Origin: Chromatiales bacterium
Lineage (GTDB): Bacteria; Pseudomonadota; Gammaproteobacteria; Chromatiales; Chromatiaceae
Assembly (NCBI GenBank): GCA_028280505.1
Contig: JANQLO010000038.1
Span: 1-64,000 of the forward strand
Direction: 5' to 3'
DNA: 64,000 bases
Made by a program: the position numbers and the translations under genes. Of this stretch, positions 301 to 31,522 are shown piece by piece. The notes under the pieces were generated by a model. It worked only from the letters and a program-made list of their open reading frames with translations, had not been told where the DNA came from and did no database searches. Each line of letters begins with the position of its first letter. Position 1 is the first letter of the stretch.

Positions 301-614
301 GCAATACTCCCCTTACCCGCCAATGTCGCGAAAGCGAACAAACGTTTAAAACAACCTTACCCAACAACGTGATTGAGTTAAGACCAATTCGCGGGAGCGA
401 CAAGAGACCCGTTTTCGAGACCTCGTTCCATTAGGACATCGAACTCGCTCCGCGATCGATCCAAAGCATAGTCGGCAACCGGGGGGTTTCCTGCAATCAT
501 TTCTCAACAGCCTCAATGCAATTGGTCGGATCGAAAAAATCCGGCAGAACAAAGAAAATTGATGTACCGTTAAGTACACACTGTACCAAATGGTACGAAA
601 TGGGAGAAACGACG
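301..614. other. Divergent intergenic region between the porin and the DUF1348 gene
   Basis: No gene seen. It carries the upstream region of the leftward porin and, close to the rightward gene, the two GTACC-N4-GGTAC palindromes listed separately. A GGGAGA ribosome-binding site sits just before the DUF1348 start. Confidence 0.7.
564..596. promoter_or_regulatory. Double palindromic operator upstream of DUF1348/TetR pair
   Basis: Two tandem sites are seen: a degenerate GTACC-GTTA-AGTAC at 564-577 and a perfect GTACC-AAAT-GGTAC at 583-596, with centres 19 bp apart, just upstream of the DUF1348 start. Palindromes of this size suit a TetR dimer, and a tetR gene is cotranscribed two genes down, so autoregulation is the inference. 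The same double site recurs at 30631-30664 before a DUF1348 remnant, which supports real function. Confidence 0.65.
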
Positions 615-1082
615 ATGTCCGATAGACCGCCTCTACCGCCGTTCACCATGGAGACGGCCGTACAGAAAGCGCGTATGGCCGAAAACGCCTGGAACACCCG
701 CGACCCTGAGAAAGTCGCGCTTGCCTACACCGAAGACAGCCGATGGCGTAACCGCGGCGAGTTCCTGCAAGGTCGCGAGGAGATCGTGGCCTTCCTGCAA
801 CGTAAATGGGCGCGTGAGCTCGATTATCGTCTGATCAAAGAACTGTGGGGCTTTCGCGAGAATCGTATGGCGGTCAGATTCAAGTATGAATACCATGACG
901 ACACCGGCAATTGGTTCCGCGCCCACGGCAACGAACTATGGGAATTCGATGAACACGGCCTGATGCGGCGCCGTGAGGCCAGTATCAACGACGTCCCCAT
1001 AAAGGCCTCGGAACGCATGTTTTTGTGGGATGCCGGCCCCAGGCCCGAGGATCATCCCGGACTGACCGAACTCGGACTCTGA
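615..1082 (+). CDS. DUF1348 / SnoaL-like (NTF2-fold) small protein
   Basis: About 155 residues with the DUF1348 pattern: PPFTMETA near the start, then [11 protein letters not shown], a central [13 protein letters not shown] and a C-terminal [11 protein letters not shown]. The family has the NTF2-like cone fold and usually no proven enzymatic activity. The ATG at 615 was chosen because GGGAGA precedes it and the family begins just before PPF. An in-frame upstream ATG at 600 is possible. It is followed after 5 bp by tetR, so the two probably form one operon. Proteins of this family are often induced under stress by a neighbouring TetR repressor, which would fit the double operator upstream. Confidence 0.8.
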
Positions 1083-1087: not shown

Positions 1088-1648
1088 ATGCCACGCAAGA
1101 TTACGGAGCGCAACGATGTCATCCCGATCCTCGCGGAACTGTTCCGTGAGCGTGGCTTCGCCGGCACCAGCCTGTCGGAGATCACCGAAAGGACCGGGTT
1201 GGGCAAAGGCAGCCTTTACCATTTCTTTCCGAACGGCAAAGAGGAAATGGGCAAGGCGGTACTCGATGATGTCGCCAATTGGTTCGAATACCACATATTT
1301 GCCCCATTACGCGAGGGCGAGGATCCTTACGCCGATATCGATTACATGTTCAAAGCCACTACGCAGTTTTTTCACTCCGGCAGACGGATCTGCCTGGTAG
1401 GCGTTTTTGCGCTGGATGATACCCGGGACCGCTTCAGCTCCGAGGTGCAATCCTATTTCGGGACCTGGACCAAAGCGCTTACGATTGCACTGAGACGCAC
1501 AGACTTCGGTGCGGCACAAGCGCGCGAGATCGCCGAGGATGTTGTGGCCGGTATTCAGGGCGCACTGGTACTGGCGAGGTCACAGGATGATCCCAAAATT
1601 TTCACACGCGCGATAAAACGTCTAAAGGCACGAACCCGCATAACATAA
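1088..1648 (+). CDS. TetR family transcriptional regulator
   Basis: About 186 residues. The N-terminal helix-turn-helix covers roughly residues 5-55 (GFAGTSLSEITERTGLGKGSLYHFF), the typical TetR DNA-binding domain, followed by an all-helical ligand domain. The C-terminal part resembles the LmrA/YxaF type (SYFGTWTKAL, AEDVVAGIQGALVLAR). The ATG at 1088 was chosen because it gives the standard N-terminus. The track-length extension to 1025 would overlap the DUF1348 gene. It lies 5 bp after DUF1348, so it is probably the repressor of its own operon acting at the GTACC-N4-GGTAC sites at 564-596. Confidence 0.88.
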   Translation: MPRKITERNDVIPILAELFRERGFAGTSLSEITERTGLGKGSLYHFFPNGKEEMGKAVLDDVANWFEYHIFAPLREGEDPYADIDYMFKATTQFFHSGRRICLVGVFALDDTRDRFSSEVQSYFGTWTKALTIALRRTDFGAAQAREIAEDVVAGIQGALVLARSQDDPKIFTRAIKRLKARTRIT

Positions 1649-8033: not shown

Positions 8034-8166
8034 GCCGCTGACGTGATACGCCCGCAGGGTTTTTGCTCTGCAACATCGAATCTTGGTCTCTGCGCACTGC
8101 CTCGGTGATGCCTAGCGGCGTATGGCCATCAGGTACCCTGTCGGCACGGTCTGAGCCGGATTTGCA

Positions 8167-8508: not shown

Positions 8509-8517
8509 CTAGCGTTC

Positions 8518-8761
8518 TGTCCGGTTAATTCGTTGAACGTCAGAGCCGCCCAAACGGACCGAGACAAGCCGCGGTTCGCAGGGAATGGCCCGCGCCCTTT
8601 CCAAAAACCGCAACGCCGTATCGGTCCTTTTTTGGAGGCCTTCGGACGCACCGGCAAGGGCTTTCGGCATTGTTGCGCACGCTTAACCGGTTCCGCGCTC
8701 GCACGCCTAACTGACGAAGGGCCCTTACCGGTGCGCTGAGGTGCAACGAATTAACCGGACA
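8518..8761. mobile_element. MITE-like element with 26 bp inverted ends
   Basis: The left end 8518-8543 and the right end 8736-8761 are inverted copies matching at 24 of 26 positions, starting TGTCCGGTTAATTCGTTG. The 192 bp between them hold no gene. This is the shape of a small non-autonomous transposable element. No clear target-site duplication is visible at the two borders, and no related transposase is in the window. Confidence 0.55.
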
Positions 8762-9369: not shown

Positions 9370-9801
9370 ATGTCATCGAACATCAGGCAGAAAGTGATGC
9401 GGCATTTGGAGCTATGCGGTCAAGTTCAGCCCGCACTGCATGAAGAGACGCACGCACCGGCACCCGATCAAATCGACAATGCGCATTTTCGCGCCTACAC
9501 GCGTATGTCGCACGATGTCGGCGGAGAGCCGGACGTTCCCATTGTTTGGGAAGAGAAAGAAGAAGAAGTATGGGAACACAACACGTTTGTGACCTGTGAG
9601 GTCCTTGCGTGGCGCGGCGTGTGGAATGCTGAAGAAAGACGCCGGCGACAAAACGTCGATGTCGGCCAGACGCAGTATCTGGGCCTGCCCTACTACGGTC
9701 GCTGGTTACTGACTGCAGCACGCATCCTCGTGGACAAGCAATACGTCACGTGTTCCGAACTCTCCGACAAGATAGATGAGGTTAGGAAACGCTATGAGTA
9801 A
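9370..9801 (+). CDS. scnB: Thiocyanate hydrolase beta subunit
   Basis: 143 residues, homologous to the N-terminal half of cobalt nitrile hydratase beta subunit. It carries ARMSHDVGGEPDVP-type sequence (here TRMSHDVGGEPDVPI) and WRGVWNAEERRRR, matching ScnB of Thiobacillus thioparus (157 residues). Thiocyanate hydrolase converts thiocyanate to carbonyl sulfide and ammonia in the cytoplasm. The beta subunit forms part of the alpha-beta-gamma protomer and supports the active site in gamma. The gene order B-A-C is the known one. A GAGGAGG site precedes the ATG, and the stop codon overlaps the start of scnA by 8 bp, suggesting translational coupling. Confidence 0.92.
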   Translation: MSSNIRQKVMRHLELCGQVQPALHEETHAPAPDQIDNAHFRAYTRMSHDVGGEPDVPIVWEEKEEEVWEHNTFVTCEVLAWRGVWNAEERRRRQNVDVGQTQYLGLPYYGRWLLTAARILVDKQYVTCSELSDKIDEVRKRYE

Positions 9802-10162
9802 ACCACACTACGATCGAGAGCATCACGCCAAAAAGGCCACCGGGATCGGCGATCCCCAGTGCTTCAAAGGCGAAGCGCCGCCCCCGAAGTTCAAGGTAGG
9901 CGACAAGGTGAGAGTCAAAGACCTGCCCGACATTTTCTACAACCGCGCACAGGTCTATACCCGGGGCGCGCCCGCCGTCGTCGCTGAGCTCGTTTACGAG
10001 AGCCCGGCGGCTGAAGACGAATCCTGGGACAACACGGAAAACGTTACATGGTTCTACAGCGTGATTTTCAAACAGAAGGATTTGTGGCCCGAATACCCCG
10101 ATACGTTTGCTAACGACACGGTGGAAACCGAGTTGCCGGAACGATGGTTGGAGCCCCTATAG
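9794..10162 (+). CDS. scnA: Thiocyanate hydrolase alpha subunit
   Basis: 122 residues, corresponding to the C-terminal half of nitrile hydratase beta subunit. FKVGDKVRVKDLPD and a later TWFYSVIFKQKDLWPE are the SH3-like barrel landmarks. ScnA of T. thioparus has 126 residues. The split of the nitrile hydratase beta chain into ScnB and ScnA is a hallmark of thiocyanate hydrolase. The ATG at 9794 overlaps the end of scnB. A 60 bp gap separates it from scnC. Confidence 0.92.
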   Translation: MSKPHYDREHHAKKATGIGDPQCFKGEAPPPKFKVGDKVRVKDLPDIFYNRAQVYTRGAPAVVAELVYESPAAEDESWDNTENVTWFYSVIFKQKDLWPEYPDTFANDTVETELPERWLEPL

Positions 10163-10222
10163 GCTGCACCGCTCGTTCATCGGACCGCGAAAATTTCAGA
10201 CGTACGAGATGAGGACACTGTT

Positions 10223-10927
10223 ATGACGGATGAACACAAACCACATGCGCCGGCGCCGATGGTCGACGAAGTCAGCGAGTTCGAGGTACTCGAGATTGCC
10301 GTCCGTGAGCTGGCTATCGAAAAAGGGCTGTTCACTGCAGAAGATCACCAGCGCTGGACCGAGTACATGCATACCCTGGGCCCCTTGCCGGCGGCGCGCT
10401 TGGTAGCCAAGGCCTGGCTTGATCCCGAGTACAAAAAGCTGGCGGTCACAGACGGTGTCAAAGCCAGTCTGGAAGTCGGCATAGACTGGGTAAACAGCAT
10501 GCCGACGAAATTCGGTACGCCCAGCGACTACTGCAATCTGCGCGTCCTTGAAGACACGCCGACGCTGCACCACGTTGTCGTTTGTACCCTGTGCTCCTGC
10601 TATCCCCGACCGATCCTTGGGCAATCGCCGGAATGGTACCGGACGCCCAACTACCGTCGTCGCTTGGTTCGCTGGCCGCGCCAGGTGCTTGCCGAGTTTG
10701 GTTTGCAGTTACCCGAGGAGGTAGAGGTCAGAGTCGAAGACTCCAACCAGAAATCCCGCTTCATCGTGTTGCCGGTGCGTCCCGAGGGCACCGAAGGCTG
10801 GACCGAAGATCAGTTGGCCGAAATCGTCACCCGCGATTGCCTGATCGGTGTCGCTTTGCCTCGACCGGGCAAGACGGCAAACGATCCGCGCCCGGTGCGT
10901 CCGGCACTCAAACCGTATCACCACTAG
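10223..10927 (+). CDS. scnC: Thiocyanate hydrolase gamma subunit (cobalt active site)
   Basis: 234 residues, homologous to nitrile hydratase alpha subunit. The metal motif VVCTLCSCYPRPILG is seen at about residues 120-133. C121, C124, S125 and C126 would be the cobalt ligands, with the last two cysteines usually oxidised to sulfinic and sulfenic acids. Thr after the first Cys marks the cobalt rather than the iron (CSLCSC) type. The pocket residues WYRTPNYRRRLVRWPRQVL follow as in ScnC. A dedicated activator gene lies 9 bp downstream and cobalt-transport genes lie 5 kb downstream, which fits the metal need. Confidence 0.94.
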   Translation: MTDEHKPHAPAPMVDEVSEFEVLEIAVRELAIEKGLFTAEDHQRWTEYMHTLGPLPAARLVAKAWLDPEYKKLAVTDGVKASLEVGIDWVNSMPTKFGTPSDYCNLRVLEDTPTLHHVVVCTLCSCYPRPILGQSPEWYRTPNYRRRLVRWPRQVLAEFGLQLPEEVEVRVEDSNQKSRFIVLPVRPEGTEGWTEDQLAEIVTRDCLIGVALPRPGKTANDPRPVRPALKPYHH

Positions 10928-10936
10928 GATTTCGAC

Positions 10937-11389: not shown

Positions 11390-11400
11390 CGCCTATTGAG

Positions 11401-11435
11401 CTCGTCATATACCGATTGCATGAATCGGCGACGAG
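11401..11435 (+). terminator. Nested hairpin after the scn operon
   Basis: CTCGTC at 11401-11406 pairs with GACGAG at 11430-11435, enclosing CCGATT/AATCGG. There is no T run, so it is either a transcript-stabilising hairpin or a weak terminator between scn and the ABC genes. Confidence 0.45.
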
Positions 11436-11454
11436 TTACGAGCTGACATTGCAC

Positions 11455-11541
11455 ATGAAACATACCCTCATAGCCTCTTGCCTTGTTCTGAACGTGTTTA
11501 GCGGACGCATTACGGCTTGGCTGCATCCCATAAGGAGTTAA
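11455..11541 (+). CDS. Possible 28-residue leader peptide before the ABC operon
   Basis: A small frame from ATG 11455 encodes a signal-peptide-like sequence (MKHTLIASCLVLNVFSGRITA and a few more residues). It stops inside the ribosome-binding site of the ABC ATPase, 3 bp before its start. It may be a coupling leader, a remnant of an exported protein, or chance. Confidence 0.25.
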   Translation: MKHTLIASCLVLNVFSGRITAWLHPIRS

Positions 11542-11544
11542 TCG

Positions 11545-12381
11545 ATGTCAATCCGTGGTGTACACCTCGACATTGAGAACCTGATCCATCGTTACACACC
11601 GAAGAGCCCGTTGACCTTCGACGGCGTGCGAATTGAAGCAAAACCGGGCGAATCGCTGGTAATCATCGGTCGGTCCGGATGCGGTAAGTCCACACTGTTG
11701 CATATCATTGCCGGCCTCTTGAAAGCGAGTGGGGGTAAGCTCAGGCTGGACAACGAAGAAGTAAAAGGACCGTCGTCCCGCTGGGTCATGATGTTCCAGG
11801 CCCCCCATCTTTTTCCATGGATGACGGTAGAGCGCAACGTCGGCGTCGGCCTGCATTTCGCGGGCTGGTCGAAAGACAAACTGCGTGATCGCGTCGCCGA
11901 GGCCATCAGTCTCGTCAGCCTCGATGACTATGCGCAAAACAACGTTCAGGATCTTTCCGGCGGGCAGCAACAGCGCGTCGCACTTGCGCGCTCTCTCGTC
12001 ATGGAACCTGAAATGCTGTTGCTGGACGAGCCGTTCTCGGCACTGGACGCCTTTACCCGTGCGGCCCTGCAGCGCGATGTCCGATCCATTTCGAAAGAGT
12101 TGGGCTTCAACCTTGTCATGGTGACTCATGACATAGATGAAGCCGTGTTGATGGCAGATCGCGCGTTGGTTATGGCCGGCTCGCCCGGAAAGATCATGCA
12201 TGATATCAGCGTCGATCTACCCGACCCGAGGAATCGGGAAGATCCTGAAGTTCAGAAGATGCGCAGATACTTGATGGACACCTTCGAAGAAGCAGTAGCA
12301 CTGCAAAAAGGAAATGGCGGTACCCAGACCAAGGTCGGTAGCTTGAGTCGAATGAACGGTATTTCTGAGCCGGCCGGGTAG
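11545..12381 (+). CDS. ABC transporter ATPase, nitrate/sulfonate/taurine type
   Basis: 278 residues. Walker A GRSGCGKS at 42-49, signature LSGGQQQR at 137-144, Walker B MLLLDEP at 157-163 and switch His195 are all present, so it should be active. It belongs to the SsuB/TauB/NrtD group (LFPWMTVERNVG). It energises import through the two permeases encoded downstream. AAGGAG precedes the ATG. Position directly after scnBAC and P15K makes thiocyanate, cyanate or another small anion a reasonable substrate, but that is inference from context. Confidence 0.9.
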   Translation: MSIRGVHLDIENLIHRYTPKSPLTFDGVRIEAKPGESLVIIGRSGCGKSTLLHIIAGLLKASGGKLRLDNEEVKGPSSRWVMMFQAPHLFPWMTVERNVGVGLHFAGWSKDKLRDRVAEAISLVSLDDYAQNNVQDLSGGQQQRVALARSLVMEPEMLLLDEPFSALDAFTRAALQRDVRSISKELGFNLVMVTHDIDEAVLMADRALVMAGSPGKIMHDISVDLPDPRNREDPEVQKMRRYLMDTFEEAVALQKGNGGTQTKVGSLSRMNGISEPAG

Positions 12382-12432
12382 ACCGTAGGGTGTAACCGGC
12401 CGCTGGCGACCCTTAAGGAGGGCTAACCCGTC

Positions 12433-13767
12433 ATGAGTGAGAAAATTCAGCAGACAATCCTTGACGATCCGACAGCCGAATCGTTGATCGCTATGCGCAG
12501 GAAGCACGACGGGATCATCGACGATCCCAATCTGGTCATTGACTACGACCCTTTGTTTTCACACGTACTGGGAACCAGTGTCGACAGGCGCGATTTCCTC
12601 AAGATCGGTGCGGCCGGTATGTTTGCCGGCGCGGTGCCGAGTGCCAAAACATATGCCGCCAAGAAAAAATGGGACCCGGTGGTAAGAATCGGCTACATCC
12701 CCATTACCGATTCCGCGGCATTGTTGATCGCCCACGAACTGGGCTTCTTCAAGGACGAAGGCATCGATTCGGTCAGACCGAAACTGATTCGCGGCTGGTC
12801 ACCCTTGGTCGAAGCATTCGCGTCGCACCAGTTCAATCTGACGCACATGCTGATCCCCATCCCGATCTGGATGCGCTACAACAACAATTACCCCGTCAAG
12901 ATCACCGCATGGGATCACACCAACGGATCGGCCATCCTGGTTGGCAAGGACTCGGGCATCAACTCGCCCAAAGACTTCGGCGGCAAGCAGTTCGCCATCC
13001 CCTATTGGTATTCGATTCATAACATTGTCTCGCAACGCATCATGCGGGATGCCGGCATCACGCCGGTGATCAAACCACAGAGCGCGAAGCTGGCGCCCAA
13101 CGAATGCAACTACGTGGTGCTCGCGCCGCCGGAGATGCCGCCGGCACTGGCCGCCAAGTCGATTGACGGCTATTGCGTCGCGGAGCCTTTCAATGCCTTG
13201 GGCGAGATCAAGGCGGGCGGCAAGGTACTGCGTTTCACCGGCGATGTCTGGAAAGGCCACCCGTGCTGCGTGGTCGTCATGCACGAAGAGAACACCGAGG
13301 ACCCGGAGCGTGCGGCATGGGCACAGGGGGTCCACAACGCCATCGTCAGAGCCCAGCTTCATCTGGCGGCGAATCGGGAAGAGATGGCCGTACTGCTGTC
13401 GCGCAACGGCAAACGCTATCTGCCGTTCCCGAAAGAGGTGGTCAAACGCGCGATGATGTTCTACGACCCGGCGTATTACAACAACCCGTTGGCGATCAAA
13501 CACCCGGAATGGGGTATGGACCGCATCAACTTCCAGGGTTGGCCTTATCGCTCTGCGACAGAGTTGGTCGTGAATGACCTGAAGAACACGCTGGTCACCG
13601 GCGACGACAAGTTCCTCGACGATCTGACGCCCAAGTTCGTTGCCGACGATCTGGTCAACTACGACTACATCAGGAAATCGCTCGAACTCCATCCGGACTG
13701 GAAGAAAGACGCCAGCGTGCCGAAAACGGGTGACCCTTATGTGCGCACGGAGGTCGTCAGACTGTGA
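12433..13767 (+). CDS. ABC transporter substrate-binding protein (NrtA/TauA-like), Tat-exported
   Basis: 444 residues. A twin-arginine motif, DRRDFLK at 51-57, is followed by a short hydrophobic stretch (IGAAGMFAGAVP) and a cleavage region near YAA. The mature part opens with VRIGYIPITDSAALLIAHELGFF, the NMT1/NrtA-type fold that binds nitrate, sulfonates, thiamine precursors or similar. An N-terminal extension of about 50 residues before the Tat motif is unusually long. The stop overlaps the GTG start of the first permease. Folded export via Tat might mean a cofactor or metal-containing ligand, but nothing in the sequence proves it. Confidence 0.88.
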   Translation: MSEKIQQTILDDPTAESLIAMRRKHDGIIDDPNLVIDYDPLFSHVLGTSVDRRDFLKIGAAGMFAGAVPSAKTYAAKKKWDPVVRIGYIPITDSAALLIAHELGFFKDEGIDSVRPKLIRGWSPLVEAFASHQFNLTHMLIPIPIWMRYNNNYPVKITAWDHTNGSAILVGKDSGINSPKDFGGKQFAIPYWYSIHNIVSQRIMRDAGITPVIKPQSAKLAPNECNYVVLAPPEMPPALAAKSIDGYCVAEPFNALGEIKAGGKVLRFTGDVWKGHPCCVVVMHEENTEDPERAAWAQGVHNAIVRAQLHLAANREEMAVLLSRNGKRYLPFPKEVVKRAMMFYDPAYYNNPLAIKHPEWGMDRINFQGWPYRSATELVVNDLKNTLVTGDDKFLDDLTPKFVADDLVNYDYIRKSLELHPDWKKDASVPKTGDPYVRTEVVRL

Positions 13768-14600
13768 GTAACGGCGTCGCACACACCGATGCGATCGCGC
13801 CGGCGGTCAAGACCGGTGAGCTGCATCCCGTGTGGCGGCGCATTTTCAACGGCGTCGTCGGGCTGACCATCCTGTTTGTCCTTTGGTGGCTGGGTGGGTA
13901 CATCCTGTCCGCCAACCCGACGACGGAGAGTTTCGCCGATTTCGGTCCCATCCCGACCTTCCATGCGATTCCGGAACTGTGGGGGGAAGGGAAAATCCAG
14001 AGGGCGATCAGCGCCAGCGGCTACCGCTTGGGCATGGGACTGCTGATCGCATTCATGATCGGTGTACCGCTGGGCATCCTGATGGGACGCAGCAAACGCT
14101 TCCGCGAACTCAGCAATTCGCCGTTTCAGTTCCTGCGCATGGTCAGCCCGTTGTCCTGGATGCCGCTGGCGGTATTGATTTTCATAGCGGCCTGGGATCA
14201 GTCGATTATCTTTCTGATCGCGATAGCGTCGGTCTGGCCCATCGCGTATGCAACGGCGGCCGGCCTGGCAAAGGTTGATCCCGCCTGGTTCAAGGTTGCA
14301 CGAAATCTTGGTGCCAGTCGTTGGCATATGCTGGTGACCATCACTATTCCGGCAATCGCCTTTGACATCTCTACGGGTACGCGTTTGGCACTGGGTGTCG
14401 CGTGGGTCGTCATCGTTCCGGCCGAGCTGTTGGGCGTGACCTCCGGCCTCGGCTACCTGATCAAGGATGCGCGTGAAACCCTTTCCTACAACGAACTCTC
14501 GGCCGCGGTTCTCATCATCGGTCTGATCGGTTGGCTCTTGGACAGCCTTGTCGCGATGATCATCAAGCGCTTCAACTGGCACAAAGGAAACGCAGCGTGA
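13764..14600 (+). CDS. ABC transporter permease 1 (SsuC/TauC-like)
   Basis: 278 residues, BPD_transp_1 family with about six membrane helices. The EAA-loop region GLAKVDPAWFKVARNLGASRW lies at about 170-190. It starts with GTG, which overlaps the binding-protein stop, and GGAGG lies 10 bp upstream. It is closely similar to the next gene over its whole length, including DFGPIP, ASGYRLGMGLLIA and the coupling loop, so the pair arose by duplication. In the membrane it would form a heterodimer with permease 2. Confidence 0.9.
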   Translation: MSNGVAHTDAIAPAVKTGELHPVWRRIFNGVVGLTILFVLWWLGGYILSANPTTESFADFGPIPTFHAIPELWGEGKIQRAISASGYRLGMGLLIAFMIGVPLGILMGRSKRFRELSNSPFQFLRMVSPLSWMPLAVLIFIAAWDQSIIFLIAIASVWPIAYATAAGLAKVDPAWFKVARNLGASRWHMLVTITIPAIAFDISTGTRLALGVAWVVIVPAELLGVTSGLGYLIKDARETLSYNELSAAVLIIGLIGWLLDSLVAMIIKRFNWHKGNAA

Positions 14601-15415
14601 GCGGTGCTACACAGACAATGCAGGCGAACGAGTCGAACACATCGATGATGTTCAAGTCGACAGGTCGGGAGCTGGTCAATTTCGTTGCCGGTTTACTGAT
14701 CCTGTTCGTTGTCTGGTACCTCGGTATCGAGTGGATTGCGTCGGATCCGGACAAGGCCAATTTTGCGGACTTTGGCCCCATACCCGCGTTCAATGCGTTT
14801 CCCTGGCTTTGGGAAGACGGGATCATTCAGGACGCCGTTACCGCCAGTGGATACCGCTTGGGCGTCGGTCTGTTGATCGCCATCGCCATCGGTGTACCGA
14901 TCGGCATCGTCATGGGCACGAGCAAGCGTTTTCGCGAATACAGCAACGCACCGTTTCAATTGATGCGCATGGTCAGTCCGATGTCTTGGGAACCGATTGC
15001 GGTACTGGCATTCGGTCTTGCCGGGGCGACCGTTATCTTCCTGGTCGCGATTGCAGCGGTTTGGCCGATTATTTTCGCGACGGCAGCCGGACTGGCCAAG
15101 GTTGACCCCGCTTGGTTCAAGGTGGCACGTAATCTCGGGGCAAGCCGTTGGCACATGCTGACCCAAATCATTATTCCTGCCATCGCTTACGACGTGTTGA
15201 CCGGCGTCCGGCTGGCTTTGGGGGTCGCTTGGATCGTGCTGGTCCCGGCAGAGTTTCTCGGTGTATCGGAAGGTCTTGGATATGCCGTGCAGGACGCGAA
15301 AGAATCACTGTCTTATGACAGTTTGATGGCGATGATTCTCGTCATCGGAACCGTAGGCTATTTGCTGGACGGCCTTTGCGTGCTGGCGTTGAAACGCTAC
15401 AGCTGGCACAAGTGA
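14597..15415 (+). CDS. ABC transporter permease 2 (SsuC/TauC-like)
   Basis: About 272 residues from a GTG at 14597 that overlaps the stop of permease 1 (GTGA), with AAGGA upstream. It is BPD_transp_1 family with about six helices, and the coupling loop KVDPAWFKVARNLGASRWHML is almost identical to that of permease 1. The two differ mainly in the N-terminal extension and in the helix after MRMVSP (SWEPIAVLAFG against SWMPLAVLIFI). Most SsuC/TauC-type importers use one permease as a homodimer, so two dissimilar copies are a point of note. Confidence 0.9.
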   Translation: MSGATQTMQANESNTSMMFKSTGRELVNFVAGLLILFVVWYLGIEWIASDPDKANFADFGPIPAFNAFPWLWEDGIIQDAVTASGYRLGVGLLIAIAIGVPIGIVMGTSKRFREYSNAPFQLMRMVSPMSWEPIAVLAFGLAGATVIFLVAIAAVWPIIFATAAGLAKVDPAWFKVARNLGASRWHMLTQIIIPAIAYDVLTGVRLALGVAWIVLVPAEFLGVSEGLGYAVQDAKESLSYDSLMAMILVIGTVGYLLDGLCVLALKRYSWHK

Positions 15416-15498
15416 TCATTGTAGCTACGGAAGCGAGCCACTGACCGCATAACAAGAGATCAGGGCAGCCCACTGAAACATTGGAGGAGATGGCAATC

Positions 15499-15687
15499 AT
15501 GCAAAATCACTCTTCGACAGTCCGCCAGGACGTGACGCGTACGCACTCCGTCGCCAAACCATTGCAGCTTGTCAGTGCGTTTGTACTGGGCGGCGTGATC
15601 GTTTATGCCGCCGGATTCTTGAACACGGCGGCCGTTCACAATGCCGCACACGACACCCGACATTCCCAAGGCTTCCCCTGTCACTAA
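15499..15687 (+). CDS. cbtB: CbtB-like cobalt transporter subunit (copy 1)
   Basis: About 62 residues: one membrane helix (LQLVSAFVLGGVIVYAAGF) and a histidine-rich tail ending HNAAHDTRHSQGFPCH, the CbtB signature. CbtB works with CbtA in predicted cobalt uptake, where its tail would bind the ion. The ATG at 15499 was chosen because GGAGGAG at 15483-15489 sits at the right distance and copy 2 starts the same way (MQN). The longer TTG form at 15481 overlaps the ribosome-binding site. Cobalt supply for ScnC is the likely reason for its place here. Confidence 0.88.
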   Translation: MQNHSSTVRQDVTRTHSVAKPLQLVSAFVLGGVIVYAAGFLNTAAVHNAAHDTRHSQGFPCH

Positions 15688-15709
15688 CCACAGCCATGAG
15701 GTGATAGCC

Positions 15710-16498
15710 ATGCTTTTCAGACAAATTGTGTTCTATGCGCTACTCATGGGCCTTTTAGCCGGTGCGGTGGTTACTATCGTACAAACCGTCCAAGTCGTAC
15801 CCATTATTCTGAGCGCGGAAACCTACGAAGGTGCCGAGGAGCCCGCTTTGGCGCCGTTCAAAGCGGAAGGTCATACGCATGGCGGCGGCGAATCCGAAGA
15901 CGCCGACGCATGGGCACCGGCCGACGGCATGGAGCGCACCTTATTCACATTCATATCGAACACAATCACGGCAATGGGATTCGCGCTACTGGTGCTGGTT
16001 GCAATGTTCGCCACACGTAACCTGACAAATAGCGGCAACAACGATTTCAATTGGCGTCACGGCCTCATCTGGGGCGCCGCGGGTTACGCGGTCTTCTGGC
16101 TGGCCCCGGCAATCGGTATGCCACCGGAGATACCCCTCGCGACAACCGCACCGCTTGAAGATCGCCAGTTGTGGTGGGGGTTCGCCGCCATCTGTACCGC
16201 CGCAGGTCTCGCCGGTCTGGCATTCGCCAAGTCGCCGTGGCGCTGGGTATTGGCATTGTTGGTTTTGGTTCCGCACATCGTGGGTGCACCGCATCATGAG
16301 GGCGCCTTGTTTGCGGAGCAACCACCGGAAGCGGCGGCAGCGCTGGAAGCGCTTGCCCAGCAGTTTGTCGGTGCCAGTGCAATCGCGAACGCATCGTTGT
16401 GGATTGTGTTGGGCTTGGTTGGCGTTTGGGCGTTACGACGGATAGTCGTTTCCACGGACAGGAGTACGGATGACGAGGCATTTTCCTCGAGGGTTTAA
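15710..16498 (+). CDS. cbtA: CbtA-like cobalt transporter subunit
   Basis: About 262 residues and five or more predicted membrane helices: FYALLMGLLAGAVVTIVQTVQVVP, the segment around residues 85-105, and WGAAGYAVFWLAPAIGMPPEIP, which is characteristic of CbtA. A periplasmic or cytoplasmic loop with EGHTHGGGESED and a later VPHIVGAPHHEG could bind metal. AGGTGATAGCC precedes the ATG at 15710. In other bacteria cbtAB genes are under cobalamin riboswitches. I see none here, so control is probably shared with the thiocyanate island. Confidence 0.88.
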   Translation: MLFRQIVFYALLMGLLAGAVVTIVQTVQVVPIILSAETYEGAEEPALAPFKAEGHTHGGGESEDADAWAPADGMERTLFTFISNTITAMGFALLVLVAMFATRNLTNSGNNDFNWRHGLIWGAAGYAVFWLAPAIGMPPEIPLATTAPLEDRQLWWGFAAICTAAGLAGLAFAKSPWRWVLALLVLVPHIVGAPHHEGALFAEQPPEAAAALEALAQQFVGASAIANASLWIVLGLVGVWALRRIVVSTDRSTDDEAFSSRV

Positions 16499-16539
16499 CT
16501 CGCAGTCGGTTCAATGCAAAGACAATAGGACAGATGATC

Positions 16540-16734
16540 ATGCAGAACATAAACAATCAGGCGGCCACGCCGCATATCTCCACTCAATCGACGACAATCT
16601 CGAAAACCCTGCAGCTGGCAGCTGCGTTCGTGCTCGGCGGTGTCATCGTTTATGCAGCGGGCTTCGTCAACACCGCAGCCGTGCATAACGCCGCGCACGA
16701 TACGCGACACTCTCAAGGTTTTCCTTGTCACTAG
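16540..16734 (+). CDS. cbtB: CbtB-like cobalt transporter subunit (copy 2)
   Basis: About 64 residues, a second CbtB 41 bp after cbtA. The membrane helix and the tail (AAVHNAAHDTRHSQGFPCH) are almost identical to copy 1, while the first 25 residues differ, so the copies have been kept under selection for the C-terminal part. The start is either ATG 16534 or 16540; the second aligns with copy 1. A cbtB-cbtA-cbtB arrangement is unusual. Confidence 0.85.
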   Translation: MQNINNQAATPHISTQSTTISKTLQLAAAFVLGGVIVYAAGFVNTAAVHNAAHDTRHSQGFPCH

Positions 16735-16749
16735 CGGCGGGTAACTTGA

Positions 16750-16770
16750 CGGTCGTGCCATGCACGACCG
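16750..16770 (+). terminator. Hairpin after the cobalt transport genes
   Basis: A perfect 8 bp stem (CGGTCGTG at 16750-16757 with CACGACCG at 16763-16770) lies 16 bp after the second cbtB. No T run follows, so it may stabilise the transcript end rather than terminate. Confidence 0.45.
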
Positions 16771-16920
16771 CGATTGACGGATTGGGCTACAAACTCGATC
16801 TGTAGTTAATCGAGGTCATGCGAATGAGCCGGGTTGGATTCGACGTTCGATTTCATCCGGCGGCATGAATCAGCGAAGGGTCGCGACATCGGCGGCTCCG
16901 GGTAACTAGAGGATAGTCTA

Positions 16921-17313
16921 GTGTCTAACGGCATCTTTATTATTTGTACCAGCGGCACAAGAGAAAAACTGCAGATGGCGGCCATGATCGCCGCGGTCGG
17001 TGCGGCCAGCGGGTCGGCTGTTTCCGTGTTCTTTTCGATGAACGCGCTGCAGTACTTTATCAAAGGCGGCAGTACAGACGCTCCGGTTGAAGGTGAGTTC
17101 GGATCTTTGATGGCAAACAACGAGGGCGTTCCACGTTTCAAAGACCTGTTCCTCCAGGCGGCCGACTTGGGTGACGCAGCCCTGCTCCCCTGCTCCATGG
17201 CGATGGACTTGATGGAGGTCTCGGAAAGCGATCTCGATGCCGAGTTTGGGGCTCCCACGGGATTGACCCGTTTTCTGAGCGATGCCGAGGGTGGTCAGCT
17301 CTACACGTTTTGA
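16921..17313 (+). CDS. DsrE/DsrE2-like sulfur-handling protein
   Basis: 130 residues from a GTG start with GAGGA at good distance. It has the DsrE/F fold pattern: IFIICTSGTREKLQMAAMIA at the start and SVFFSMNALQYF in the middle. Cys9 and Cys91 (LLPCSMAMDLM) are candidates for persulfide carriage, and the second sits where DsrE-like proteins keep their conserved Cys. Such proteins pass sulfane sulfur between TusA and oxidation systems in the cytoplasm. It is followed by tusA and an SQR-like gene, which is a known neighbourhood in sulfur oxidisers. Confidence 0.85.
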   Translation: MSNGIFIICTSGTREKLQMAAMIAAVGAASGSAVSVFFSMNALQYFIKGGSTDAPVEGEFGSLMANNEGVPRFKDLFLQAADLGDAALLPCSMAMDLMEVSESDLDAEFGAPTGLTRFLSDAEGGQLYTF

Positions 17314-17354
17314 AACGCAATTCACAACGGATCGAACACACAGGAGCATGCCCG

Positions 17355-17585
17355 ATGAATGAAACAAAGATTATCGATGCAAGAAACACGTTCTGCCCCG
17401 GACCGCTGATGGAACTCATCACCTACATAAGGCAGGCCGATGTCGGCGATAGCCTCGAACTGCTTTCTACCGACGATGGGACGGCCAACGATGTGCCCGA
17501 ATGGATAGAGAAAGTCGGGCATGAAATGATCAGCAGCGAGAAAGTCGAGGGGGTTTGGCACATTACTGTTCGTAAAACCAAATAG
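17355..17585 (+). CDS. tusA: TusA family sulfur carrier
   Basis: 76 residues with DARNTFCPGPLMEL near the start. The CPGP motif carries the persulfide-forming cysteine (Cys14). The ATG at 17355 was chosen because GGAG precedes it and TusA proteins start a few residues before this motif. In sulfur-oxidising bacteria TusA relays sulfane sulfur with DsrE and rhodanese proteins to cytoplasmic oxidation enzymes. Here it lies between dsrE-like and the SQR-like gene. Confidence 0.9.
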   Translation: MNETKIIDARNTFCPGPLMELITYIRQADVGDSLELLSTDDGTANDVPEWIEKVGHEMISSEKVEGVWHITVRKTK

Positions 17586-17657
17586 TAGGCCATGTCTGAC
17601 CGACAGGCTCTAGTGTGGCCAATCGAACAGTGTTCTGTTAACGAATAGGAGAAGGCA

Positions 17658-18791
17658 ATGAGAATCTTAGTCGTCGGTGGCGGAACGGGTGGCACCATTG
17701 TGGCTAACAATCTCGCACGGCGGCTGGCTCCCGAGATCCGTGCCCGCAAGGCATGGATAACTATGCTGTCGGCTTCGGACAGGCATATGTACCAGCCAGG
17801 CTTGCTGTATGTGGCATTTGGCCAGATGATGCCGGACGAGCTGTATCGAGACCAACAAAGCCTGCTCGAATCGTCTATCGATTTTCATGTCGACCCGGTT
17901 GAGACGTTTGAGCTCGACAAGAATCAGGTCAAGACCAAAAGCGGCGCCCTGCACGCCTACGATGTGCTGGTGATCGCAACTGGCTCTCGGGTGATGCCGA
18001 AGAAGATTCCCGGCCTTGAAGAAGGCGCGGAAACATTTTACACGGAGGCGGGAGCGGTCAAGCTTTTCAAGGCGCTGCGTGAGTTTGAAGGCGGCAAGGT
18101 ATGCATTGTCGTCGGCGTACCGCATAAATGTCCGATTGCACCGGTCGAGGTTACGTTTTCGCTGCATGACTACTTCAAGACCCGCGGTATTCGCGACAAG
18201 GTGCACATCAAGTACAACTATCCCATCAACCGTATTCACAGTATCGAGAATGTCGCAAAGTGGGCGCAGCCCGAATTCGATCGCATGGGCGTCGAATACG
18301 AGACACTGTTCAACGTCGAGGCAGTGGATGTCGAAAACAAAGTCGTCAAGAGCCTCGAGGGATCGGAAGACCGGTACGACTTACTGATATCGATTCCCGA
18401 GCATCATGGCATGGATGTCATCGAAAGCAATAACCTCGGCCCGGACGGCTGGATTCCCACCGATCGGCATAAGCTGACGATGGAAGGACATGACAATGTC
18501 TACGTCGTTGGCGATACCACAAATCTACCTGTCAGCAAGACCGGGTCGGCGGCACACTTCGAGGCGGAGGTGATCGCCGAGAACATCGCGTCGATCGTGA
18601 AGATCGGCACACCGGTCAAGGACTACGACGGCAAAGTTTACTGCTTCATCGAAGCCGGACACGACCGCGCCACCTACGCAATGTTCAATTACGAAAACCC
18701 GCCCGATCTCAAGGCGGCAAACAAGTCGATGCACTGGTTCAAAATGTCCTACAACAAGATGTACTGGGCCAGCGTGCGCGGTCTACTGTGA
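17658..18791 (+). CDS. Sulfide:quinone oxidoreductase-like flavoprotein
   Basis: 377 residues. The N-terminal FAD-binding motif is ILVVGGGTGGTIVANNLA. A second dinucleotide region holds VLVIATGSR, and the third FAD contact is NVYVVGDTTNLP. Cys149 and Cys158 (CIVVGVPHKCPIAP) and Cys329 (KVYCFIEAG) are positioned like the redox cysteines of SQR-type proteins. The enzyme would oxidise sulfide or a persulfide and reduce quinone or another acceptor at the membrane. The DsrE-TusA-flavoprotein-DUF1641 order is known from sulfur oxidisers. It may not be a true SQR, since flavoproteins of this group vary in substrate. A 77 bp fragment of a diverged copy is at 30786-30862. Confidence 0.82.
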   Translation: MRILVVGGGTGGTIVANNLARRLAPEIRARKAWITMLSASDRHMYQPGLLYVAFGQMMPDELYRDQQSLLESSIDFHVDPVETFELDKNQVKTKSGALHAYDVLVIATGSRVMPKKIPGLEEGAETFYTEAGAVKLFKALREFEGGKVCIVVGVPHKCPIAPVEVTFSLHDYFKTRGIRDKVHIKYNYPINRIHSIENVAKWAQPEFDRMGVEYETLFNVEAVDVENKVVKSLEGSEDRYDLLISIPEHHGMDVIESNNLGPDGWIPTDRHKLTMEGHDNVYVVGDTTNLPVSKTGSAAHFEAEVIAENIASIVKIGTPVKDYDGKVYCFIEAGHDRATYAMFNYENPPDLKAANKSMHWFKMSYNKMYWASVRGLL

Positions 18792-18804
18792 GGAGTCATC
18801 AATA

Positions 18805-19248
18805 ATGAGTACGGCCATACAGACAGAGTCAACTTCAGAGCCAAGTCCGGAAGTGACGGTTTCTGAAACGGATGTGCAACGCCTCGCTGAGCTGGCAACG
18901 TTGGTCTCGGCGGCGCAGGATGCGCTGAGCGACGATATGGTCTCCCGAATGGCGTCGGCCTTTAGCGAGGGTATCACGCTCCTCGATCGGCTGACGCGTA
19001 ACGAGGGCCTGATTCGGCTACTGCATATTCTCGATACCCCGGAAGCGCAGCATTTGCTCATCAGTTTCTCTCACGCATTGAGACAAATGAGTCGTGAATT
19101 CGCCACTACCCCGCCGACCAAAGGCGGCATTGTCTGCTTGTTGAAGCTGGCCAAAGATCCCGGCATGCAGGAAGGCCTGAGGTCGCTTTCATTGCTCGGC
19201 AAGTACATGGATGAAAGCATGCGGGAGCTTCACCGCAAGGGTGGATGA
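18805..19248 (+). CDS. DUF1641 protein
   Basis: 147 residues, helical, with LAELATLVSAAQDALSDDMV and the DUF1641 core TKGGIVCLLKLAKDPGMQEGL. The family occurs next to SQR-like flavoproteins and formate dehydrogenase components and may anchor or regulate them; no activity is known. It lies 13 bp after the SQR-like gene and ends that operon. The last 11 codons plus stop recur, diverged, at 30957-30992. Confidence 0.88.
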   Translation: MSTAIQTESTSEPSPEVTVSETDVQRLAELATLVSAAQDALSDDMVSRMASAFSEGITLLDRLTRNEGLIRLLHILDTPEAQHLLISFSHALRQMSREFATTPPTKGGIVCLLKLAKDPGMQEGLRSLSLLGKYMDESMRELHRKGG

Positions 19249-27856: not shown

Positions 27857-29785
27857 TCAGTAGGTCATGCCAAGACCGATATAGACCGTGGTACCTTCCG
27901 TGGCATACCCGTGCAATTCTTCGTAGTTCTCATCGAAGAGGTTGTTAACGGAACCGGTCATGTAAATCCGGTCATTGAAATCGTGGCGCAACGCCAGGTC
28001 GACCACGCTATAGTCGTCAAGATTCACACGCCGGGTAGAATCAACCGGAGATGGGCCAAGGAAGTTCAAATCCTTGAGATTGGAGACATGTCGCAGGTTA
28101 CCGGACAGCCTGGTGCGGTTGTTGCTGAACAAGTAGGAGGCACTAACACCCAGTTCTTCTCTCGGTCTGCGCACCTCCCTGCCTTCGGGCTCTTTCGCGT
28201 CCAACGAGGTGAAGGCTAGACCTATGTCAAGACGGTCGGTGACAGCCCACTGCGCTTCGACTTCAATGCCGCGCCGTTTACTGGTGCCGGTACGGTTGAC
28301 CGGTGTGGCGACAAAGGTCGGCGCGGGAAATATTGTGGTGATTTCGTTTTCGAGCTCCTCTTCGAAATAGGTGATATCGATCACGGCACGGCCATCAAGG
28401 AACTGCTGTTCGATGCCGATATCCCAACCGCTGCTCTCCTCTGCTTTAAGGTTGGGATTAGGATTAAACGAACCGGGAATAAAACCAAACTGCTCGAACA
28501 GCGTCGGTGTTTCCACACCACTGCTGTCTGAAAAATGCAGGCGAGTCGACTGGTTCGGAAAGGTATAAGACAGTCCAAGAACATGCGTCGTGAAATTATC
28601 AAAGGTATCGTTATCATCCAGGCGCACACTGGCCTGGATATCGAGGCCGAAATCCAGGTTGCCCTGGTATTCCAGCACATAGCCGGTCTGATCTCGTTCA
28701 CGCTCGGTCAATTGGCTCGCGGCAAAGACCGGTGGCCGAGCTCTGAATTTTTGAGTTTCTCTATCGATGGCAAAAGTTATCTTGTGATAGGCGGCATCCA
28801 GTGTCGCTGCATCAAGGGCGAAAGTGGCCTGGTAACTTAATTTGTCCCGGGATTGGGTATTCGCCGACGTCGCCACATCGTTTCGTGTGTTTTTCATATC
28901 GATATCGGAAAAACTGAACATCAGTTTGTGGGCAAGGCGATCGCCGAAAGTATCGGCCTCCAAGAAGACGGAGCCGAACAATTCGTCCATCTCGTTCGTA
29001 TTGTCTTGTTCGAAGACCAAAGCCGATTTGGTGAGTGCACCAAATGCGAACCCGTCGAAATCGGAATCTCTGTTCACGCTGCGCAGCGTACCGCCTAGCG
29101 TGACCGAATCATTGATGAAAAAACGACCATTGGCATTGAACGTCGTATTTTCATCCTCGTCATCTTTACCGCCAACGCTATCCGAGACGTCAAATCCACC
29201 GGTATTACGTTGTGCCAGCGACACGCTCAAGTCACCGTGCTCCCCCGCATAGCGCATCGCCAGCAGCCCTCCGTCGTTACCACGCGAACCGAACTCGATT
29301 TCCGCCTGGCCGGCGAAACCCGGTTTGGTGGCCCGCTTGGTAGTGATCGAAATCACACCACCGATCGCGTTCGAGCCGTACAGCGATGACTGAGCACCGC
29401 GCAGTACCTCAATACGTTCGATATCGGCGGCCAGCAATCCGCCGAAATCGTATTCGGAACCGCTGGGTGCCGCTACCTCGACCCCATCAATGAGTACAAG
29501 CGTATGGTTACCCTCATTTCCGCGAATGCGTACTTGCGTGAATCCGCCGAAAGAACCCGTACGTGATACCGACACACCTGGCAATGCACGTAAGGCTTCG
29601 GCCGCATAACGTACACCCTTGCGCTCGATGTCTTCAGCAGTGATTACGCTCACTGCACGTCCATAGGCTGACGCCTTGACCGGCGTAAGACCTGCCGACA
29701 TAACGATTTCATCGAGATCCAGTGCTTGCTGCGCCGAAGCCGGTATTGCCAGCATGGCGACGGGCAACAGATAGGCGTGTTTCAT
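27857..29785 (-). CDS. TonB-dependent outer-membrane receptor, BtuB-like
   Basis: 642 residues with a signal peptide (cut near ASA-QQ). LDEIVMSAG is a TonB-box-like start. The plug domain holds VSVSRTGSFGGFTQVRIRG, VLIDGVEVAAPSGSEYDFGGLLAADIERIEVLRGAQSSLYGSNAIGGVI. The barrel ends with YIGLGMTY. The plug is close to BtuB/CirA-type receptors. Cobalamin would match the cobalt theme of the region, but iron complexes are equally possible. GGAGGGGG precedes the ATG. It is the first gene of the nine-gene uptake operon. Confidence 0.9.
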   Translation of the reverse strand: MKHAYLLPVAMLAIPASAQQALDLDEIVMSAGLTPVKASAYGRAVSVITAEDIERKGVRYAAEALRALPGVSVSRTGSFGGFTQVRIRGNEGNHTLVLIDGVEVAAPSGSEYDFGGLLAADIERIEVLRGAQSSLYGSNAIGGVISITTKRATKPGFAGQAEIEFGSRGNDGGLLAMRYAGEHGDLSVSLAQRNTGGFDVSDSVGGKDDEDENTTFNANGRFFINDSVTLGGTLRSVNRDSDFDGFAFGALTKSALVFEQDNTNEMDELFGSVFLEADTFGDRLAHKLMFSFSDIDMKNTRNDVATSANTQSRDKLSYQATFALDAATLDAAYHKITFAIDRETQKFRARPPVFAASQLTERERDQTGYVLEYQGNLDFGLDIQASVRLDDNDTFDNFTTHVLGLSYTFPNQSTRLHFSDSSGVETPTLFEQFGFIPGSFNPNPNLKAEESSGWDIGIEQQFLDGRAVIDITYFEEELENEITTIFPAPTFVATPVNRTGTSKRRGIEVEAQWAVTDRLDIGLAFTSLDAKEPEGREVRRPREELGVSASYLFSNNRTRLSGNLRHVSNLKDLNFLGPSPVDSTRRVNLDDYSVVDLALRHDFNDRIYMTGSVNNLFDENYEELHGYATEGTTVYIGLGMTY

Positions 29786-30199
29786 CGCGATGACCCCCTC
29801 CGAATTCTTTGTCCAACAGCAAATTGTTTAACTGTTGTAGTGACGGGAATGGCCTTGGCCGCAGCACTGTTATGGCACTACAGCGGCAAGTTCCGTGACC
29901 CAAACTGCATCCGCAAACGGGCAAGATGATCGCTTCGCCACGCGTCGACTTCCCCGTTACCAACACATGCCTAAACCGGCGCTTTCCAGTTTCCGCCGTT
30001 ACCGCCGTTACCGCCGTCAGACCCGCCATAGTCCTCGTCATATGTCCACTCGATTGAGGCCATGTGTATTCAGCGACCACGACGAAAGCCCACCGCTGAG
30101 CATGTCTCGATGTCGTTAAACCGGCCGTCGCGATTGTTGCCATTCTGTACGCTTGCCCAGTTGAGTTGATGTCGCGATCTCGTTCGTGCAGGCTTTACA
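29786..30199. other. Receptor leader and unassigned sequence
   Basis: No gene supported. On the minus strand about 29840-29990 has some resemblance to the core of a cobalamin riboswitch but lacks the closing box. A short triple repeat of CCGCCGTTA lies at about 29993-30020. Confidence 0.35.
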
Positions 30200-30273
30200 T
30201 GCGTTTCGACTTGTTGTTCGAGTCGATTCATGCGGGCTTTAGCTGCGGTCAGCTCTTCGGCAATAAGGCTACC
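30200..30273 (-). pseudogene. LbtU-like porin remnant (coiled coil)
   Basis: The minus strand reads LIAEELTAAKARMNRLEQQV, which aligns with the coiled coil of the porin at 1-300 (FEKELAAIKARLSQLEHQV). The surrounding frame has no signal peptide or barrel. The orientation relative to the DUF1348 remnant is the same as at the left end of the window. Coiled coils look alike by chance, so the call rests mainly on synteny. Confidence 0.4.
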
Positions 30274-30630
30274 GGGGCTATTCCCGGACCTGCCAAGACA
30301 GTAATCAACGTGGCCGCTACTAAAGTTCTATTCATTCACGATTCCGAAAAACCACCGACACCGAAACATTGGACAGACCGAGCATCAACCAACAAACGAC
30401 ACATGCTCATCCTCGGGCTGTAACACCGTGTGACGCGATAAGTCATCGGCTATCTACAAGCCAGTAAACTGCACGAGTTTCGTCGTTAATGTGATGCAAA
30501 GCATAGCTTTCAATTTTAAGTTGTGAAGTAAAAAAATTCGAAACCACGAAATAAAAAAACTTACTTACATCAATATTCCATAAACAACTATTCACTTAAA
30601 AAAGAAACAGAGAAAATACTTTAAAATAAT

Positions 30631-30664
30631 GTACCTATCGGTACATTACTGTACCAGTTGGTAC
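30631..30664. promoter_or_regulatory. Second copy of the double GTACC-N4-GGTAC operator
   Basis: Two perfect palindromes, GTACC-TATC-GGTAC (30631-30644) and GTACC-AGTT-GGTAC (30651-30664), centres 20 bp apart, lie 21 bp before the ATG of a DUF1348 remnant. This repeats the arrangement at 564-596 with different spacer bases. Confidence 0.65.
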
Positions 30665-30684
30665 ATTTTAGCGACACCACAATC

Positions 30685-30831
30685 ATGGCTGATCGAGCGC
30701 CACTACTCACGTTCGATATGGAGATTGCTATAAAGAAGGTTCGTGTTGCGGAATCAGCAATCGGCGTCATGATCCCGTTTGGGGAATCGAGAATGCTGCA
30801 AAGCGGGCACAGCCGGAATTCGACCGCATAG
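30685..30831 (+). pseudogene. DUF1348 remnant, N-terminal 27 codons
   Basis: From an ATG the reading MADRAPLLTFDMEIAIKKV matches the start of the intact DUF1348 protein ([19 protein letters not shown]), then RVAES matches RMAEN. After about residue 27 the similarity stops and the frame runs out of frame into the SQR-like remnant, ending at a TAG. The operator in front is still intact. Confidence 0.75.
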
Positions 30832-30862
30832 GTCTTGAATACGAGACGCTGTTTAACGTCGA
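30786..30862 (+). pseudogene. Remnant of an SQR-like flavoprotein gene
   Basis: 77 bp match 18243-18319 of the SQR-like gene at 65 of 77 positions without gaps. The reading IENAAKRAQPEFDRIGLEYE corresponds to IENVAKWAQPEFDRMGVEYE. The match breaks off on both sides. Confidence 0.85.
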
Positions 30863-30956
30863 CGGAATAGCTAAGGCGAAATGTACCGCCTCACCGGGGT
30901 CAGGCATGATCGCGCCATCTCTGAAAAAACGAGGGATTGATTCAGCTACTACATAG

Positions 30957-30992
30957 GAAAGTATGCGGGAGCTACATCGGCGCGGCACCTGA
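30957..30992 (+). pseudogene. Remnant of a DUF1641 gene, last 11 codons and stop
   Basis: The frame reads ESMRELHRRGT followed by TGA, against ESMRELHRKGG and TGA at the end of the intact DUF1641 gene (19213-19248). The stop codon is at exactly the same distance. Confidence 0.7.
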
Positions 30993-31084
30993 AGATGTAT
31001 CGACCATCGACAGACCGAGCCGTTCGGGTTCATCATGTCTTTCGGGAAACAAATCCCATTGGACAACCTACCCGGAGGGCTACC

Positions 31085-31522
31085 TTGTCTGCACAACAGG
31101 GACTTTTGCTGATCGCTGCAATCGGTGGCATATCGGTCAGCCTACAGGCACATTTCCTAGGCTTGATGGACAAACGCGTCGGCACATTCGAAAGCGTGTT
31201 CATCACCTATGCGATCGGCGGCCTGTTGGCGGCACTGCTGATGCTTTTTTATCGTGGGCACAATCTCGCTGCCGCACAGCACCTGCCTTGGTATGTCTGG
31301 ACCAGCGGGGCATTGGGTCTGGTCATCGTCGGCGCTATCGGTTACAGCACCCCCCGCCTCGGCTTGGTGACGGCATTGGCCATCGTAGTCGGCGCACAGT
31401 TCATTACGGGTGCTTTGATCGATCAGTTCGGCCTGCTCGGCGCCGAACTGCGGCCGCTCGATTCGGTCAAACTCGCCGGGCTGGGGCTGATCGTCGTCGG
31501 CATCTGGCTCACCTTGCGCTGA
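31085..31522 (+). CDS. YdcZ-type DMT family transporter (DUF606)
   Basis: About 145 residues from a TTG start at 31085, chosen because GGAGG lies at 31074-31078 and the upstream part of the frame runs through remnant DNA. There are about five membrane helices (GLLLIAAIGGISVSLQAHF; IGGLLAALLMLFY; TSGALGLVIVGAIGYSTPRLG; LAIVVGAQFITGALIDQFG; LAGLGLIVVGIWLTL). The ALIDQFG motif is typical of DUF606. Family members are small inner-membrane exporters, often working in pairs. Here the gene is single. Confidence 0.82.
   Translation: MSAQQGLLLIAAIGGISVSLQAHFLGLMDKRVGTFESVFITYAIGGLLAALLMLFYRGHNLAAAQHLPWYVWTSGALGLVIVGAIGYSTPRLGLVTALAIVVGAQFITGALIDQFGLLGAELRPLDSVKLAGLGLIVVGIWLTLR

Follow-up and report, generated by a model that had tools for sequence, protein, structure and literature searches.

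A likely collapsed relic of a second thiocyanate-degradation gene cluster, with an intact operator, in a Chromatiales bacterium

About 1 kb of broken gene pieces (approximately 29989-30992) in the DNA of a Chromatiales bacterium is likely to be a relic left by the collapse of a second thiocyanate-degradation cluster, the intact copy of which lies in 1-19248. Positions refer to the window, the whole 64,000-nucleotide stretch that was analysed (contig JANQLO010000038.1, assembly GCA_028280505.1). The relic is larger than a preliminary description of the window had reported. Two pieces of an LbtU-type porin gene lie on the minus strand; they are followed by a double operator that is perfect, by stretches of 25 codons from a DUF1348 gene and 26 codons from an SQR-like gene, and by two fragments of the gene that comes after SQR, labelled 'DUF1641'. 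These pieces are homologous to genes of the intact cluster, follow them in order and strand, and differ from their parents by 14-35% in sequence. Truncated frames and the alteration of one residue that is otherwise invariant show that their coding capacity has been lost. The relic brings together what had seemed two separate loci as a single thiocyanate cluster, gives a readable case of cluster shrinkage, and links a testable TetR regulator to a defined operator and to the DUF1348 family, which is uncharacterised.

The intact thiocyanate hydrolase cluster

The parents of the relic pieces had been described as two distant loci. Pfam and NCBIfam assignments show that both are ends of one cluster, since a run of recognised families extends between them, on the forward strand save for a LysR gene. 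In order, the run comprises the DUF1348-TetR pair (0.6-1.6 kb), a porin (2055-3518), LysR, a methyltransferase, a YtkA-like protein, a protein of the di-haem cytochrome c peroxidase type, three nitrile-hydratase-type subunits, an ABC transporter, CbtA, DsrE, TusA, the SQR-like protein and the last gene, which ends at 19.2 kb. The reading frames at 5799, 8197 and 10937 matched no Pfam family at E 0.001. scnC was assigned to TIGR03887 (392.9 bits against a cut-off of 291.45) and has scnB and scnA as neighbours; by these family assignments, 9370-19248 is an intact thiocyanate hydrolase cluster. The name 'DUF1641' given earlier to the last gene did not hold, as 18805-19245 has no match to Pfam DUF1641; it is used here as a label.

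The first 300 positions of the window, at the start of contig C44, and 8564-8863 of L137, at the end of contig C71, hold two LbtU-type genes that are broken at the same codon. What is missing of the gene was probably collapsed as a repeat in the assembly. On C71, the copy is preceded by a short gene resembling heme-uptake HemP.

The pieces of the relic

That this stretch is a degraded duplicate of genes of the same genome was borne out by alignments and shuffle tests of the single pieces, and the order and orientation said to repeat those of 1-700 and of 17658-19248 were found again (Table 1). Strength of support varies among the pieces. When 30450-31000 was compared with the whole genome (4.65 Mb, 85 contigs) at E <= 0.001, the sole non-self match was the parent stretch of the SQR piece, whose 77-bp alignment stands as first described. 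In this piece Trp202 is changed to Arg, at a site where every one of the 47 relatives read, out of 51 loci, has Trp. The homology of the DUF1348 piece is also real, with a local score of 28 where 300 dinucleotide shuffles reached no more than 23, but it is clear over about 25 codons rather than the 27 reported.

The end of the gene after SQR, 11 codons with the stop, was likewise recognised correctly: the relic reads ESMRELHRRGT and stop where the parent reads ESMRELHRKGG and stop, and 1 of 2000 shuffles was as good. A further piece of the same gene, at 30928-30955, had been overlooked; it scored 36, the shuffle maximum being 27 of 300. As read from these frames, the coding pieces of the relic are dead and make nothing.

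The LbtU-like coiled-coil remnant was confirmed at the protein level, where the coil (30172-30288, minus strand) scored 66 against a maximum of 42 in 500 shuffles. The signal-peptide-like frame was weaker (41, shuffle maximum 44), and the match at the DNA level was not clear (26 against a maximum of 28 in 300 shuffles, p 0.013). When the peptide SIEWTYDEDYGGSDGGNGGNGGN was compared with the C-termini of seven relatives, three comparisons beat all 300 shuffles (best 80 versus 42) and four did not. With the NF033652 model (LbtU_sider_porin, cut-off 90), two full-length relatives scored 340.6 and 344.4 bits, and the short 100-aa window piece gave no match. Upstream of the relic operator, 30360-30622 showed no clear match to 301-555 (p about 0.07). 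The region before the relic DUF1348 (30500-30684) has 29% G+C, compared with 52-59% in the nearby gene stretches measured, and 29786-29988, between a TonB receptor gene and the LbtU relic, has no recognised origin.

Table 1. Features of the intact cluster, the relic and the adjoining gene (positions in the window)
Feature	Positions	Strand	Remarks
Double operator of the intact DUF1348-TetR pair	562..599		22/24 scored positions
DUF1348 gene, intact, left end of cluster	615..1082	+	PF07080, 219.7 bits
TetR-type regulator, presumed binder of both double operators	1088..1648	+	PF00440 and PF21993; homologues beside similar dyads on plasmids
Thiocyanate hydrolase genes, order scnB, scnA, scnC, middle of cluster	9370..10927	+	PF21006, PF02211, PF02979
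DsrE, TusA, SQR-like and 'DUF1641' genes, right end of cluster	16921..19248	+	Pfam/NCBIfam
LbtU-family siderophore porin gene, C-terminal relic piece	29989..30057	-	Glycine-rich, hence less certain; peptide SIEWTYDEDYGGSDGGNGGNGGN
LbtU-type gene, N-terminal relic piece	30172..30335	-	Start codon, signal-peptide-like stretch and coiled coil; frame change between signal stretch and coil
Double operator of the relic	30629..30666		Two TGTACC-N4-GGTACA dyads 20 bp apart; 24/24 scored positions
DUF1348 gene, first ~25 codons, relic	30685..30759	+	49/75 nt identical to 615-689
SQR-like gene, codons 196-221, relic	30786..30862	+	65/77 (84%) identical to 18243-18319, E 3e-17 genome-wide
Gene after SQR ('DUF1641'), codons 66-75, relic	30928..30955	+	24/28 identical to 19000-19027
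Gene after SQR ('DUF1641'), last 11 codons and stop, relic	30957..30992	+	25/36 nt identical to 19213-19248; frame and stop kept
YdcZ-type (DMT_YdcZ) small membrane exporter gene, intact, abutting the relic	31085..31522	+	TTG start; PF04657, 99.3 bits

The double operator and its regulator

The double operator in the relic is intact at every scored position, as had been claimed. An exact search for the double pattern gave two sites in the genome itself; among 210 genomes of the family, two were hit, G097 once and in a simple repeat. The pattern written backwards, used as a control, was found in three of the 210 (G161, G162 and G217) and not in the genome itself. With three mismatches and fixed spacing, on both strands of nine genomes of the genus, the relic site alone was found, and the control matched once in the genome itself and once in G008. 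Since controls match too, the operator pattern alone is weak evidence, and it is the placement before DUF1348 that carries weight. In the aligned stretch, 19 of 20 positions in the operator arms (counted by hand) are conserved, compared with 69 of 112 in the rest (Fisher p 0.002), with the division into arms and rest chosen after the alignment had been viewed. Selection before decay would give the same conservation of the arms, so that selection after decay is not proven by it.

Dyads were also found upstream of all five plasmid-borne DUF1348-TetR pairs (L140-L144), with 17 to 22 of 24 positions matching (p 0.005, 200 shuffles). Four of these pairs were taken from 8 of the 57 records that matched in a search with TetR, and one was the only pair among 10 DUF1348 loci taken from a spread of 60 out of 269 matching records. 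When 32 other DUF1348 loci were scored, L056 (p 0.015) and L151 (p 0.005) stood out. Apart from these two exceptions, dyads occur where TetR adjoins DUF1348 and not at DUF1348 genes without TetR. At E 1e-20 this TetR was detected in 2 of the 210 family genomes, the present one and G008 (35%); a shortened gene in G004 fell below the threshold. By analogy with the similar dyads before DUF1348-TetR pairs elsewhere, the double operator of the relic is taken to be a site of the TetR encoded at 1088-1648, which probably still binds it.

DUF1348 and the cluster in other genomes

The association of DUF1348 with the cluster was followed through 51 SQR loci, which came from one scan of genome contigs and differ in the length of their flanks. 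DUF1348 was present in the available flanks of four of them, never directly upstream of SQR, and absent from the flanks of the other 47; LbtU was absent from the available flanks of all 51. Upstream sequence longer than 7.5 kb was available for 35 loci, and 29 of these have scnC. Directly after the last cluster gene, DUF1348 lies on the same strand in L068 and on the opposite strand in L086 and L088. The record of a metagenome-assembled genome (L056) has a broken DUF1348 gene and one matching dyad upstream of its own scn-SQR cluster, on the same strand; the dyad and the frameshifted gene lie at 1246-1500. The porin gene at 2055-3518 also has homologues behind the last cluster gene, on the same strand in L056, L092 and L095 and on the opposite strand in L069 and L071.

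In the genus-mate G004, a 7.2-kb contig carries DUF1348, an internally deleted TetR gene, LysR, a methyltransferase, a second LysR and, at the contig end, the first 33 codons of scnB. Another contig of G004 carries the ABC transporter genes, DsrE, TusA, SQR and the last gene, so that with the cluster split over two contigs the whole is not seen unbroken there. The large internal deletion in the G004 TetR gene (L023, 6473-6699), whose neighbour DUF1348 extends as far as the end of the contig, is a second case of regulator decay. Linkage of DUF1348 to the cluster therefore recurs, yet it is a minority arrangement.

Across the 210 family genomes, DUF1348 was found in 19 (E 1e-30), SQR in 18 (E 1e-120) and both in 8 (hypergeometric 2e-5, uncorrected for relatedness). 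Co-occurrence is not linkage, as the two genes are about 470 kb apart in G162 and on different contigs in G003. On plasmids, 31 records match SQR, all with less than 60% identity. The proposal that DUF1348, its TetR and sulfide oxidation belonged together survives as linkage to the cluster, but 'sulfide oxidation' is too narrow for a thiocyanate hydrolase cluster, and the pair is also found on plasmids without annotated sulfur neighbours. In a Gluconobacter plasmid (L150, 1951-2959) DUF1348 directly follows cyanase (cynS), which again hints that it may be connected with the chemistry of cyanate or thiocyanate. The literature found on DUF1348 concerns Cercospora genes in the available part of its text (PMC4608573).

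Origin of the relic

Under the favoured history, a second cluster copy would have arisen with the order and strand of the intact one, and successive deletions would have removed its middle (about 17 kb if the layout was the same) and parts of each end gene. In 29800-31100, compared with the window, no trace of TetR, the porin at 2055, scn, the ABC transporter, DsrE or TusA was found, so that the middle of the second copy is an inference; surviving remains of the scn core are expected only if the deletions spared part of the middle. The copies would have diverged mostly while still in use and then decayed. This is suggested by the number of changes at third codon positions in the SQR piece (9 of 12) and in the C-terminal piece of the last gene (7 of 11); the 30928 piece has 2 of 4. 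In the DUF1348 piece (12 of 26) the third-position pattern is not clear, and its decay may have begun sooner or its origin may be a different one. The history gains from the DUF1348 and TetR pieces on the G004 contig that ends in scnB, from the adjoining of DUF1348 to the cluster in L068, L086 and L088, and from the dyad and broken DUF1348 of L056.

Alternatively, two histories may have met at one place, in that most of DUF1348 was deleted from a DUF1348-YdcZ locus like that of genus-mate G001, while the SQR-'DUF1641' end was duplicated over a short length in a separate event, dropped in between and then decayed. This course of events is unlikely, although the neighbourhood speaks for it. The protein of the YdcZ gene beside the relic is 77% identical to one on contig C111 of G001, whose gene directly follows DUF1348 after about 53 bp (of 145 codons, 62 differ silently and 34 by amino acid). 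G001 has no SQR match at E 1e-30 in its genome, and of the window genes compared with 20 kb of it, DUF1348 and YdcZ alone were present there; the DUF1348-YdcZ locus may thus predate the SQR piece. At E 1e-10, among the nine genomes of the genus, this YdcZ is found only in G000, the present genome, and G001, beside DUF1348 sequence in both, and the relic site shares this neighbourhood with G001. In the family, YdcZ occurs in 10 of 210 genomes, and in the eight that belong to other genera the available flanks, about 1.3-1.5 kb long, do not contain DUF1348.

The DUF1348 and SQR pieces also differ in codon-position pattern and in divergence, the former (65%) being further from its parent than the latter (84%), which could mean separate origins or separate times of decay. 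However, the first 75 nucleotides of DUF1348 vary fast anyway, with 52 of 75 identical between the present genome and G001. A 12-mer at 30901-30912 recurs exactly in the DUF1348-YdcZ gap of G001 (L022), possibly by chance. The left side of the site offers no clean orthologous empty site for reading, because the TonB receptor gene there (27857-29785) has no match at E 1e-60 in any of the eight other genomes of the genus. Two separate events would further need the coincidence that order and strand came to match those of the intact cluster, and it is because of this match that collapse of a whole second cluster is favoured.

The compact LbtU-DUF1348-TetR-SQR-DUF1641 ancestor first proposed is very improbable. 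It takes up the order of the surviving pieces, and DUF1348 does stand upstream of SQR-'DUF1641' on the same strand in the window (615 to 19248), but over the length of the whole cluster. Neither a contiguous locus of the proposed kind nor a compact DUF1348-SQR locus was found among the 51 SQR loci, and TusA lies at most 400 bp upstream of SQR in all 42 that could be tested, where the start of SQR is present together with 400 bp or more of preceding sequence. An assembly error joining unrelated contigs is scarcely credible: the contig does start inside an LbtU gene at the codon where C71 ends, and repeats probably break the assembly, but the 14-35% divergence and the invariant-site change argue that the pieces are not misplaced copies from the same genome, and YdcZ recurs beside DUF1348 in G001.

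The surviving operator and the exporter gene

The surviving operator may still gate transcription towards YdcZ at 31085. It could be that operator and promoter were kept by selection after the genes had decayed since they drive YdcZ, in which case one TetR would serve two promoters, those of DUF1348-TetR and of YdcZ. This proposal is tentative and rather doubtful. Scans for promoters and terminators did not exceed chance, and at the operator itself they showed no promoter-like site. Between the operator and YdcZ, one promoter-like and one terminator-like site were seen, the latter across the YdcZ start, with totals not above chance; the outcome of the scans speaks mildly against the proposal. 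If the operator does still control the exporter, loss of cluster genes would have rewired regulation, and the site would be a clear example of it.

Comparison with known systems

Decayed gene-cluster relics in bacteria keep their gene order while deletions shorten the frames and otherwise invariant residues change. The relic in the window is alike in these respects; it is unlike them in that its operator is intact and abuts an intact gene.

The DUF1348-TetR pair of the window resembles those on plasmids of Komagataeibacter, Ensifer, Agrobacterium, Pararhizobium and Sphingopyxis, whose TetR proteins are 47-55% identical to that of the window. In the plasmid pairs TetR starts 2-3 bp after DUF1348, compared with 5 bp in the window, and one or two TGTACC-N4-GGTACA-like dyads lie upstream, as in the window pair. 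The relic, by comparison, has lost TetR and keeps just 25 codons of DUF1348. The 2.5-4 kb flanks of the four annotated plasmid loci out of five list no thiocyanate or sulfur genes in a gene table that is incomplete, the Pararhizobium record being unannotated. The presence of the pair and its operator on alphaproteobacterial plasmids without annotated sulfur neighbours marks it as a separate regulated pair that joined the cluster.

As given in the available part of its description (PMC5328954), the Thiobacillus thioparus cluster has the order scnABC, a hypothetical gene, ABC transporter, DsrE-like, TusA, SQR and a hypothetical gene. The window cluster comes close to this order and has in common with it scn, a hypothetical gene, a NitT/TauT-type ABC transporter, DsrE-like, TusA, SQR and a final hypothetical gene, and in both a cobalt transporter gene and a methylase are in the neighbourhood. 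In the window the gene for the cobalt transporter comes after the ABC transporter and before DsrE, in T. thioparus upstream of scn. Unlike the T. thioparus cluster as far as that part of the text describes it, the window cluster has DUF1348-TetR and a porin at its left end, and of such a cluster the relic retains mere bits of both ends.
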